Positions 40,776-47,121 of a stretch of DNA of 64,000 bases are shown piece by piece (position 1 is the stretch's first letter; the number at the start of each line of letters is the position of its first letter). The notes beneath the pieces were generated by a model. The model saw only the letters and a list, made by a program, of their open reading frames with translations, did not search any database and was not told the origin of the DNA. Origin of the DNA: Wielerella bovis (GTDB taxonomy: Bacteria; Pseudomonadota; Gammaproteobacteria; Burkholderiales; Neisseriaceae); NCBI RefSeq assembly GCF_022354465.1, contig NZ_CP092361.1:2076522-2140521 (forward strand), given 5' to 3'. A program made the position numbers and the translations under genes.

Positions 40776-40803
40776 ATAAAGGCAGCCTGAAAATAGCGTA
40801 ATT

Positions 40804-40974
40804 TATAGTTATTTCAAATTAACTACAGATAAGACGACAACGCCGTACTATTTGTATAGTGAATTCAATTTAAACCAGTACAGCATTGCCAGCTCCCTTA
40901 TGTACTGACTATACACGGCGGTCGCTGTCGCCTTGTCCTGATTTAGTGAATCCACTATATTTGAAATGACTATA
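40804..40974. repeat. Family-2-type element interrupted by a Correia-like element
   Basis: Outer ends are TATAGTTATTTCAAATTA and TTTGAAATGACTATA. Inside, at 40855-40959, is a family-1 element in the opposite orientation to most others (TATAGTGAATTCAATTTAAA ... TTTAGTGAATCCACTATA, 105 bp). The outer left part keeps GACGACAACGCCGTACTATT. This is the second clear nested insertion in the window. Confidence 0.75.
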
Positions 40975-41378
40975 AATTACGCTATTTTATTTTTTACAAA
41001 TATTCTCAATTTAATGCAAATAAGGTATAATAGCACAGCATTAATACATTATATATTAATACATTATATATTAATACATTATATATTAATACATTATATA
41101 TTAATACATTATATATTAATACATTAATTTTGCTTGTCGCAAGCAAACTTTCGTTGAGTTATATCCTGAAAATTTAATGAGAAAATGATTAAAACCTTAA
41201 AACCAATATAACTTCTTACTTATTATCAAGATTGAGGAATAAGTTTTGATTAAATTTCAGCATGATACTTTCAGAATATGGCTTTTAATCCACCGCAGAT
41301 TGAAAATGCTTTGTACCAGAAGTACAAACTTATGTTCAATTCTGTAAATATTTCATCATAAATATAGGAGAAACCATT
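40975..41378 (+). promoter_or_regulatory. Promoter region of the first solute-binding gene, with a tandem repeat
   Basis: A good -10, TATAAT, is at 41026-41031, with a weak -35 (TTCTCA at 41003). Ten bases after the -10 starts an array of 15-bp repeats, unit TTAATACATTATATA: five full copies (41041-41115) and a partial sixth. The rest of the 250-base leader has short A/T-rich stems but no coding frame. AGGAG precedes the ATG. The homologous region of the second gene (from about 42930) has only one copy of the repeat unit. Confidence 0.6.
41041..41126. repeat. 15-bp tandem repeat array
   Basis: Five perfect copies of TTAATACATTATATA followed by a sixth truncated copy ending TTAATACATTAA. Perfect identity between copies indicates recent, probably variable, copy number. 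It begins just downstream of a predicted -10 box, so copy number alters the 5' leader of the transcript. Confidence 0.9.
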
Positions 41379-42164
41379 ATGAAAAAAGTTCTACTCTCCC
41401 TCATGGTATTAGGTGTCGCAGCCTGTTCAGACAATACTAAACAAGCTGAATCTCCTACCACCACACAAACAACCGCAGAAAGCACAAATAAACCCTCTTA
41501 TCGTGTCGTATCCGAAGTAAGCTACGCACCATTCATTATGCGCGATGAAAACAAAAAAATCAGTGGCTTTGAATACGATTTACTCAATGCCATTGCTGCC
41601 AAACAAGGTTTTACGCTGACTTTTGAACCGCATACATGGGAAGGTATTTTTGATACATTAGATAGCAATCGTGCTGATATTATTAGCGCTGGTCTGAGTA
41701 TCACCGAAGAGCGTAAACAAAAATGGAGCTTTTCTGATGCTTATTTCCAAACTTCTATTGCTGCATTGGTTCCAGAAAATTCCCCCATCAAAAGTTTTGC
41801 TGATTTAAAAGCGCGTAAAGTTGGCTTTCAAAAAGGGGCGTTATCAGAACAATTTGCAAAACAATTTGGCGCAGACCTCTCCAATTCACAACCATCTAAT
41901 ACTTCTTGGTTGCGATGGAAAAGCATTGTATCCAATGGAAATGAAGCTATTATAGATGATGTAGGCCCATTGAAATATTATGAAAAACAGTATCCTAACG
42001 AAAAAGTTCGTATCATTACTGATGATAGTTTGCCGAAATTTGATTATGGTTTTGCAGTGCGTAAAACCGATGCCGAATTATTAAATAAATTGAATGCAGG
42101 TTTAGCACAAATCAAACAAGACGGAACATATGACCGCTTGTATCAACAATATTTTGCGCAGTAA
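41379..42164 (+). CDS. Amino-acid-type solute-binding lipoprotein, copy 1
   Basis: A 261-residue lipoprotein of the family 3 solute-binding proteins (polar amino acids). Lipobox VAAC around residue 16, then a Thr/Glu-rich linker. The binding domain begins YRVVSEVSYAPFIMRDENKK and contains ISGFEYDLLNAIAAKQGF, the ITEERKQKWSFSDAY block with the typical FSxxY, and DLKARKVGFQKGALSEQF. The ligand cannot be decided from sequence. No permease or ATPase gene is adjacent, so it is an orphan binding protein. It is about 85 per cent identical by eye to the copy at 43655, from which it differs by loss of one Asn (EVS-YAPF versus EVSNYAPF). Confidence 0.9.
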   Translation: MKKVLLSLMVLGVAACSDNTKQAESPTTTQTTAESTNKPSYRVVSEVSYAPFIMRDENKKISGFEYDLLNAIAAKQGFTLTFEPHTWEGIFDTLDSNRADIISAGLSITEERKQKWSFSDAYFQTSIAALVPENSPIKSFADLKARKVGFQKGALSEQFAKQFGADLSNSQPSNTSWLRWKSIVSNGNEAIIDDVGPLKYYEKQYPNEKVRIITDDSLPKFDYGFAVRKTDAELLNKLNAGLAQIKQDGTYDRLYQQYFAQ

Positions 42165-42168
42165 TCTT

Positions 42169-42330
42169 AGAACCTGTATTCACAATCTTAATAGCTTGCT
42201 TTTATCGCCACTTCATGCGCCCACTGCGTTGGCTTTCATGCCAATATGTTCAATATTGGCATGAAAAGTTGCCTTGTATTCACAAGTGTGTCAATAAAAT
42301 CAAGCCACCAATCTTATGAATACAGGTTCT
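42169..42330. repeat. Family-4 element, complete
   Basis: 162 bp with ends AGAACCTGTATTCACAATCT and AATCTTATGAATACAGGTTCT (inverted, imperfect). Inside is the palindrome GCCAATATGTTCAATATTGGC. Two further full copies are at 43324-43486 (opposite orientation) and 46958-47121. Confidence 0.8.
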
Positions 42331-42899: not shown

Positions 42900-42960
42900 T
42901 TTTTTAAAAAATATTCCCAACTTTATTTATAAAAGGTATAATAATACCGCATTAATACAT
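42900..42960 (+). promoter_or_regulatory. Duplicated promoter region of the second solute-binding gene
   Basis: AAAAGGTATAATAATACCGC at about 42934-42953 corresponds to AATAAGGTATAATAGCACAG before copy 1, with the same TATAAT -10 and the following CATTAATACATTATATA. It lies more than 700 bases from the gene because three repeat elements have since been inserted. Confidence 0.55.
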
Positions 42961-43013
42961 TATATATGCATTAATAAATCAAAGTTTATTTTACAGCAAT
43001 AAACTTTACTTAA

Positions 43014-43215
43014 CGCGAACTCGGGATAAGAAAAATTAAAAATTCTATGAAAATAAATGACTTGCGTAGAGTGGGTGCTTGCATCCACCATGTTCAGGCA
43101 GCCTGAAATCAAATTCTCAATAATGCTACGGTAAACTCGTGGGTGCAAGCACCCACCCTACGGAAGATTTTTTATTAAAACAAATGCTTAATTTATTTCT
43201 TATCCCGAACTCGCG
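43014..43215. mobile_element. 202-bp MITE-like element with 8-bp target duplication
   Basis: Terminal inverted repeats of about 20 bp (CGCGAACTCGGGATAAGAAA on the left; the right end is the complement of CGCGAGTTCGGGATAAGAAA). TTACTTAA occurs directly on both sides (43006-43013 and 43216-43223). The homologous region of copy 1 reads AAACTTTCGTTGAGTTATAT with no insertion and serves as an empty site. The interior has a second inverted repeat, GTGGGTGCTTGC ... GCAAGCACCCAC, around a DUS, and no coding capacity. A solitary similar end (CGCGAGTTTGAGATAAG) lies at about 63819. Confidence 0.8.
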
Positions 43216-43323
43216 TTACTTAAGTTATATCCTGAAATTCTAGAGGCATTACAACCATTCAAGATATAACTTCTTTATCCATCACTTAATTTTGGATATG
43301 CTTTGTACTAGGCGTACAAACTT

Positions 43324-43486
43324 AGAACCTGTATTCATAAGATTGGTGGCTTGATTTTATTGACATTCTTGCGAATACAAGGCGGTTTCCCACGTCAATA
43401 TTGAACATATTGGCATGAAAAGCCAACGCAGTAGGCGCATAAAGTGGCGATAAAAGCAAGCTATTAAGATTGTGAATACGAGTTCT
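43324..43486. mobile_element. Family-4 element inserted in the second gene's leader
   Basis: 163 bp, ends AGAACCTGTATTCATAAGAT and GATTGTGAATACGAGTTCT. Flanks GTACAAACTTA (left) and TTATATTCAATTCTG (right) join to match the uninterrupted GTACAAACTTATGTTCAATT before copy 1, so the insertion boundaries and a TTA-type duplication can be read directly. Confidence 0.8.
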
Positions 43487-43521
43487 TATATTCAATTCTG
43501 CAAATATTTCACTATAAGCAC

Positions 43522-43634
43522 TTATGTTCTGAAATTGGATGGCTTGATTCTATTGCCATACCTACGAATACAAGGCAGCAGACTTAATAAAGTGATGACA
43601 AAAACAAACTATTAAAATTATGAATACAGTTCTA
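43522..43634. repeat. Decayed family-4 element next to the ribosome-binding site
   Basis: A 113-base stretch alignable with the 43324 copy (GGCTTGATTCTATTGCCATA versus GGCTTGATTTTATTGACATT; AAACTATTAAAATTATGAAT versus the other end), with an internal deletion. It ends at CAGTTCTAA, just before ATATAGGAGAAAC, which is shared with copy 1. Confidence 0.6.
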
Positions 43635-43654
43635 AATATAGGAGAAACTTAATT

Positions 43655-44446
43655 ATGAAAAAAATTCTATTATCTCTCATGGTATTAGGTGTTACAGCAT
43701 GTTCAGATAATACTAAACAAGCTGAATCTTCTAACCAAACACCACCAGCCACTACTGAAAATGCAAGCAAGCCTACTTATCGTGTTGTATCCGAAGTAAG
43801 CAATTATGCGCCATTTATCATGCGCGATGAAAACAAAAAAATCAGTGGTTTTGAATACGATTTACTCAACGCTATTGCTGCTAAACAAGGTTTCACGCTG
43901 ACTTTTGAACCGCATACATGGGAAGGTATTTTTGATACATTGGATAGCAATCGTGCTGATATTATTAGTGCAGGTTTGAGTATTACCGAAGAACGCCAAC
44001 AAAAATGGGGCTTTTCTGATACTTATTTTCAGACTTCTATCGCTGCATTGGTTCCTGAAGATTCACCTATCAAAAGTTTTGCCGATTTAAAAGCACGTAA
44101 AGTCGGTTTCCAAAAAGGCTCTTTATCAGAAAAATTTGCGAGACAATTTGGTGTAGACACATCTAATTCTCAATCAGCTAAAACTTCTTGGTTACTTTGG
44201 AAAAGCGTTGTATCCAATGAAAATGAAGCCATTATCGATGACGCTGGACCATTGAAATATTATGAAAAACAATATCCTAATGAAAAAGTCCGTATCATCA
44301 CTGATGACAGCTTGCCTAAATTTGATTATGGTTTTGCGGTGCGTAAAAATGATACCGAATTATTAAATAAATTGAACGCAGGTTTGGCACAAATTAAACT
44401 AGATGGAACGTATGACCGTTTATACAAACAATATTTTGCTAAATAA
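43655..44446 (+). CDS. Amino-acid-type solute-binding lipoprotein, copy 2
   Basis: A 263-residue lipoprotein, tandem paralogue of the gene at 41379. Lipobox VTAC around residue 16 and an Asn/Pro/Thr linker, the most variable part. The binding domain begins YRVVSEVSNYAPFIMRDENK and matches copy 1 almost throughout; differences cluster in the linker and in the stretch around residues 165-185 (GSLSEKFARQFGVDTSNSQS). The frame is intact with conserved spacing, so selection has kept both copies. Like copy 1 it lacks neighbouring permease or ATPase genes. Its leader has been rearranged by three repeat insertions, so expression of the two copies probably differs. Confidence 0.9.
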   Translation: MKKILLSLMVLGVTACSDNTKQAESSNQTPPATTENASKPTYRVVSEVSNYAPFIMRDENKKISGFEYDLLNAIAAKQGFTLTFEPHTWEGIFDTLDSNRADIISAGLSITEERQQKWGFSDTYFQTSIAALVPEDSPIKSFADLKARKVGFQKGSLSEKFARQFGVDTSNSQSAKTSWLLWKSVVSNENEAIIDDAGPLKYYEKQYPNEKVRIITDDSLPKFDYGFAVRKNDTELLNKLNAGLAQIKLDGTYDRLYKQYFAK

Positions 44447-46957: not shown

Positions 46958-47121
46958 AGAACCTGTATTCATAATCTTAATAGCCTGCTTTTATCGCCAC
47001 TTCATGCGCCTACTGCGTTGGCTTTTCATGCCAATATGTTCAATATTGGCATGAAAAGTCGCCTTGTATCCGAAAAAATTGGCAATAAAATCAAACCATC
47101 AATCTTATGAATACAGGTTCT
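46958..47121. repeat. Family-4 element, complete
   Basis: 164 bp with ends AGAACCTGTATTCATAATCT and AATCTTATGAATACAGGTTCT, same orientation as the 42169 copy and nearly identical to it, including the palindrome around CAATATGTTCAATATTGG. Confidence 0.8.

Follow-up and report, generated by a model that had tools for sequence, protein, structure and literature searches.

The window analysed here, a stretch of 64,000 nucleotides of the Wielerella bovis genome, carries two paralogous genes for solute-binding proteins, and the leader of the second gene is interrupted by a 161-bp element (GAACC...GTTC) lying between two copies of TTA (Table 1). A sequence-only reading had recognised this interruption, and the absence of the element from the leader of the first gene, and had located the element at 43324-43486; the place was right, and the exact ends lie one base further in on each side. 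No open reading frame of at least 100 amino acids in the window's list of frames overlaps the element. The further full copies named at 42169 and 46958 are both present, and an older insertion of the same family, which that reading had overlooked, starts 29 bases past the right TTA as a 115-bp relic with TAA on both sides.

Table 1. Features of the two paralogous leaders and neighbouring elements (positions in the window)
Feature	Position	Strand	Remark
Promoter-like site, copy 1	41003..41031	+	consensus match only
Uninterrupted leader of first gene, empty at both insertion points	41303..41374	+	63/72 identical to rejoined copy-2 leader
First amino-acid-type ABC solute-binding protein gene	41379..42164	+	profile matches all below NCBIfam cut-offs
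Second full copy of the element	42169..42330	-	directly past stop of first gene; flanks match, TTA on + strand
Promoter-like site, copy 2, corresponding to that of copy 1	42914..42942	+	upstream of insertions
Left target duplication TTA	43322..43324	+	single TTA at matching point of paralogous leader
161-bp putative MITE (GAACC...GTTC), one long imperfect hairpin, mosaic inner stem	43325..43485	+	
Right target duplication TTA	43486..43488	+	
Left target duplication TAA of older insertion	43515..43517	+	
115-bp degenerate relic of the family, inner hairpin lost	43518..43632	+	partial matches; boundaries from empty site
Right target duplication TAA of relic	43633..43635	+	
Second solute-binding protein gene	43655..44446	+	DNA 86% identical to first gene
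Third full copy of the element	46958..47121	-	between convergent genes; flanks TTA / TAA, mismatched

The two leaders provide filled and empty sites within one genome, as had been claimed for the larger insertion. The leader of the first gene has a single TTA and a single TAA at the points where that of the second gene has two of each, and the relic is likewise absent from it. After removal of both insertions and of one copy of each duplication, the rejoined copy-2 leader agrees with 41303-41374 at 63 of 72 positions in an ungapped alignment; 20,000 shuffles yielded no more than 37 matches, and shifts of 1-4 bases gave 19-25. Remnants of element ends, which would have pointed to deletion from copy 1, were looked for in the first gene's leader and none were seen, a result that favours insertion. 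Because the empty sites carry single target bases and no such remnants, two insertions into the leader of copy 2 after the gene duplication, an old one and a later one, are the most likely history. Other genera offered no usable orthologous empty sites, since matches to the second gene outside its own genome were all short, spanning 29 to 186 bases.

Both insertions lie downstream of a promoter-like site common to the paralogues and upstream of an intact, conserved AGGAGAAAC before the start codon, and for this reason they would form a hairpin within the 5' untranslated part of the copy-2 transcript, provided that the shared site is used. In copy 2 this site falls within a 72-bp block 81% identical to copy 1; promoter-like sites of this kind were found 23 times against 22.3 expected from shuffles, that is, with no excess. 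Directly downstream of the first gene's promoter-like site, tandem ATTAATACATTATAT units with a 15-bp period occupy 41040-41126, the second gene having about one unit. The copy-2 region also contains a third insertion, of another family, at 43014-43216 (about 203 bp, with inverted AACGCGAACTCGGGATAAGAAA-like ends and the direct repeat TACTTAA at 43007-43013 and 43217-43223). Among 40 of 1259 candidates, at least three further copies of it are 99-100% identical, and its first 32 bases match at 88% in at least eight places situated about 390-490 bases upstream of 313-codon IS5-like transposase frames; this insertion therefore has the appearance of a second MITE, active very recently and with a partner IS of its own.

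The genome, searched as one contig of 2,294,361 bases, holds at least 29 full-length copies of the 161-bp element at 84-100% identity to the query, and besides these at least two full-length copies at 77% identity, with TTA on each side, and about a dozen partial places (40 of 78 candidates). With up to two mismatches allowed, the end motif was counted 75 + 76 times and its reversed control 2 + 8 times; this excess, together with the number and identity of the copies, excludes chance. The elements have terminal inverted repeats, and the 29 copies measure 159-164 bp between their duplications. Read outside GAACC...GGTTC, the 3-bp flanks are identical in 25 of the 29, whereas 20,000 random re-pairings of left and right flanks produced 12.7 matches on average and never more than 23. 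On the left side the copies have TTA (16), TAA (10), TCA (2) or GTA (1), and the four copies whose flanks do not match are L008 (window 46958), L013, L017 and L019. As the flanks agree as direct repeats and their middle base varies, they are target duplications lying outside the inverted repeats; the TTA duplication suspected earlier is thus real at 43325-43485 and is one case of a general TNA.

Nine copies (L010, L013, L015, L016 and L021-L025) differ pairwise at 0-4 alignment positions, with two pairs identical, and this near-identity points to a recent burst of the family. The inner stem of the copy in the leader is mosaic, its left arm being of the CCCACG type, as in the young near-identical group, and its right arm of the CATGAAA type, as in older copies, which suggests recombination among copies. 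The 29 copies, 14 on the + and 15 on the - strand, show by eye no clear orientation bias relative to neighbouring genes, and they appear intergenic when non-overlapping frames of at least 80 codons are retained by a greedy filter: the frames overlapping elements comprise two of short length (93 and 83 codons), two starting within an element end and five with their stop at the element edge. At 5 of the 29 copies (L003, L004, L013, L014 and L026) a neighbouring frame of more than 100 codons has its stop codon formed by, or located at, the element end, the target bases with or without the element's first G giving TAA or TAG. Three of these frames presumably encode TrpA, Nth and Ung. A rough estimate places 2-3 such cases of genes ending flush with the element at the level of chance, and an association beyond chance was accordingly dropped.

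Several other structures involve the same ends or nest within the elements. Two very short derivatives retain both ends: L043 (550-605, about 56 bp) has matching TTA flanks, and L034 (1827-1889, about 63 bp) has mismatched ones. In L030 (C1:2155488-2155748) and L036 (C1:89239-89504) a different repeat, whose ends resemble TATAGT...ACTATA, occupies one and the same TA of the element, apparently in opposite orientations, and L035 (C1:545548-545735) has a rearranged form; these are cases of a Correia-like repeat nested in the element. A repeat at 40800-40988 of the window (TATAGTGAATTCAATTTAAACCAGTACAGC..., with inverted outer arms 97% complementary over 30 bases) resembles the nested one.

A pattern search with the ends of the element detected one full IS in the genome (at least one full copy, in 40 of 54 candidates), at C1:671579-672395. 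It measures 817 bp, is flanked by TTA on both sides, and reads GAACCTGTGTTCATAA at both ends, the same 16 bases as the ends of the element; an end fragment of 62 bp is located at 1218109-1218170. The IS encodes, in two overlapping reading frames that stand in a -1 relation, a transposase of the IS5 DDE type: scored apart, the frames match Pfam DUF4096 and DDE_Tnp_1 over cut-off, and NCBIfam transpos_IS5_3 with 110.8 bits for the C-terminal and 77.6 bits for the N-terminal frame, the cut-off of 110 being set for the whole protein. In the nine young copies the right end equals the IS end over 16 bases in eight cases and at 15/16 in the ninth, and the left ends match it at 14 or 15 positions. Only the outer 17-20 bp or so are common to the element and the IS, with no internal sequence in common, so the element did not arise from this IS by simple deletion.

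The ends, frames, size and target make it very likely that the 817-bp IS belongs to the IS1031 subgroup of the IS5 family. ISLrh, assigned to that subgroup by its authors, is described as having ends of 17 bp (GAACCTGTCTAGTATCT) and a TNA target, with a -1 frameshift linking its two ORFs (PMC12016507). According to this description both have GAACCTGT ends of about 17 bp, a length of about 820-860 bp, -1 overlapping frames and a TNA duplication (PMC12016507); the short element, in contrast, is non-coding and has the ends alone in common with this group. The target is TTA at the IS, TTA, TAA and TCA at the element, and TGA in one other carrier genome (G010). Among relatives of the IS, 2 of 77 loci have ends of this type, many of the 77 being cut at contig ends. 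A contig titled Candidatus Bathycorpusculum sp. carries an 842-bp IS5-type element (L079) whose ends are GAACCTGTATTCA and whose flanks do not match.

The short element was found in 6 of 61 genomes of a set of relatives and in the same 6 of 83 genomes of a family-wide set, where they represent 4 of 12 genera; in genomes with many candidates the best 13 and 10, respectively, were scored, so that an isolated copy may have been missed. No copy was found in the genomes of g10, the largest genus of the family set, a few of which had more candidates than were scored. Matching flanks border 26 of 33 copies fetched from the five other carrier genomes, one of them being ATA rather than TNA; the 33 include two probable duplicates at contig ends and two truncated copies. 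In these five genomes a full copy of the IS was found neither among 14 candidates per genome nor in a second search with all candidates scored, and none of the IS5-family loci examined from them had ends of this type nearby. Collections of plasmids, phages and viruses yielded no copies, the viral scan consisting of exact matches to a 41-base pattern with 6 open positions in records among which those near the window's genome may be absent. The window contains AGGCAGCCTGAA, which we take to be the kingDUS uptake sequence, 51 + 43 times, against 0 for the reversed word. The kingDUS repeat has been described in Kingella oralis and Simonsiella muelleri (PMC3630211).

As RNA, the element at 43325-43485 folds over its whole length into one long stem of -64.2 kcal/mol, compared with -33.6 (sd 3.6) for shuffles. 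The conservation of this hairpin was analysed in an alignment of 57 copies, namely the 29 of this genome and 28 of the 33 fetched, leaving out L191, L196 and L199 (incomplete), L201 and L204 (duplicates) and the two own copies at 77% identity. Changes on both sides that keep the pair occur in 15 of 50 consensus pairs, 10 of the 15 in the inner hairpin, as against 3-6 pairs when partners are slid by 1-3 columns and a mean of 8.0 in 500 shuffles, one of which reached 15. A neutral expectation was obtained by evolving the inferred root sequence along the tree of the copies, each column at its own rate and pairing unconstrained, in 120 runs that used alternate rows of the 54 distinct ones; recombination, by which changes can recur, is disregarded in the tree. 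The real mean folding energy was -82.3 on the + strand (simulated -57.0, sd 4.7) and -60.5 on the - strand (simulated -45.9, sd 4.5). A constraint on the hairpin is well supported.

The evidence for a preference between strands is suggestive only. In 56 of 57 copies, which through their relatedness are far from independent, the RNA of the + strand is predicted to fold more stably than that of the - strand, and the real strand difference of -21.8 falls just beyond the most extreme run (-21.0; simulated mean -11.1, sd 4.1). By strand symmetry, G-U and A-C should arise at equal rates when neutral single changes hit Watson-Crick pairs. Among the outer-stem pairs, G-U occurs without A-C in 11, A-C without G-U in none, and both occur in 5 (11 to 1 for pairs predicted from either strand; sign test, p = 0.006), and pairs inside the element show no bias (6 to 7), the inner stem being without a G-U excess. 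Counted as changes, G-U exceeds A-C by 66 to 28 on the + strand structure, leans the opposite way on the - strand structure (11 to 21, p = 0.11), is unbiased for pairs predicted from both strands (6 to 8) and stands at 71 to 41 for the union of structures. With structures re-predicted in the simulation, the observed G-U share of 0.70 compares with 0.58 (sd 0.21). By region on the + structure, the tally on terminal branches is 32 to 7 for the outer stem and 23 to 16 for the inside, and on internal branches 7 to 0 and 9 to 7, respectively. The caveat on recombination applies to the tree here as well, and its root is an inferred one. A tentative reading of these patterns, possible and on balance doubtful, is that one strand is kept foldable into the full-length hairpin by natural selection or by the copying process, in which case an RNA or single-stranded DNA form may have a role, either in the spread of the element or in taming its effect in untranslated regions.

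Taken together, the ends, the duplications and the empty site make it highly likely that the 161-bp element is a MITE which inserted into the leader of copy 2 and was moved in trans by an IS5-type transposase, very probably that of an IS such as the 817-bp partner. The transposase would recognise the ends of about 16 bp (GAACCTGTRTTCRTAA) and insert the element into a TNA target, duplicating three bases; after duplication of the solute-binding gene, one element would have entered the leader long ago, leaving the relic, and another would have followed. Against this explanation stand the restriction of the similarity with the IS to the ends, the failure to find a full IS copy among the candidates scored from the five other carrier genomes, and the 4 of 29 own copies that have no matching flanks. 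The converse history, in which the element preceded the gene duplication and was then lost exactly from copy 1, draws on precise excision as a general possibility and on nothing more; it would require two precise losses, each leaving single target bases and no visible remnant at one of two separate points, and is very improbable.

An explanation by selection for an RNA or regulatory function, with the repeat serving mainly as an RNase III substrate or an insulator and its spread being incidental, would account for the retention of the hairpin beyond the neutral simulation, for the pair-keeping double changes that sliding abolishes in large part and for the excess of G-U over A-C in the outer stem. 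It seems unlikely nevertheless, as the transposon hallmarks are complete, both orientations occur with no clear preference relative to genes, the inner stem lacks the G-U excess and no Rfam match was obtained at the element. The same size class, and a host that appears Neisseriaceae-like by its uptake-sequence-like repeats, would be compatible with a Correia (CREE/NEMIS) element, the least probable of these readings and close to negligible. The end sequence of Correia elements differs from the GAACCTG ends found here. In the published account they have a TA duplication and 26-bp repeats (PMC3898611) instead of a three-base TNA duplication next to such ends, and membership was rejected on these grounds.

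The element is of a familiar kind, a MITE probably moved by an IS5-family transposase. Correia elements, described in N. gonorrhoeae and N. meningitidis, are likewise short intergenic MITEs with inverted repeats, and differ in their duplication, their ends and the rest of their sequence; they have been reported as RNase III substrates, the RNA being processed by that enzyme, or as insulators (PMC10969869). The ERIC and QMITE repeats, as characterised in the same source, are also non-autonomous and mostly intergenic, with terminal inverted repeats and direct repeats, and have other sequences, being set apart here by their description rather than by a letter-by-letter comparison (PMC10969869). 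No earlier description of the present family was found in the open-access literature searched (MITEs in Neisseriaceae, Neisseria and Simonsiella; Correia elements in Kingella; the end sequences).

With these results, four genera of one bacterial family are seen to carry a further MITE family, which has a likely partner IS, and clean filled and empty sites become available within a single genome. The presence of nine near-identical copies beside a single full partner IS makes mobilisation in trans directly testable. If the constraint on the hairpin holds, and most of all if it acts on one strand, selection would bear on the folded form of a bacterial MITE and not on its ends alone.
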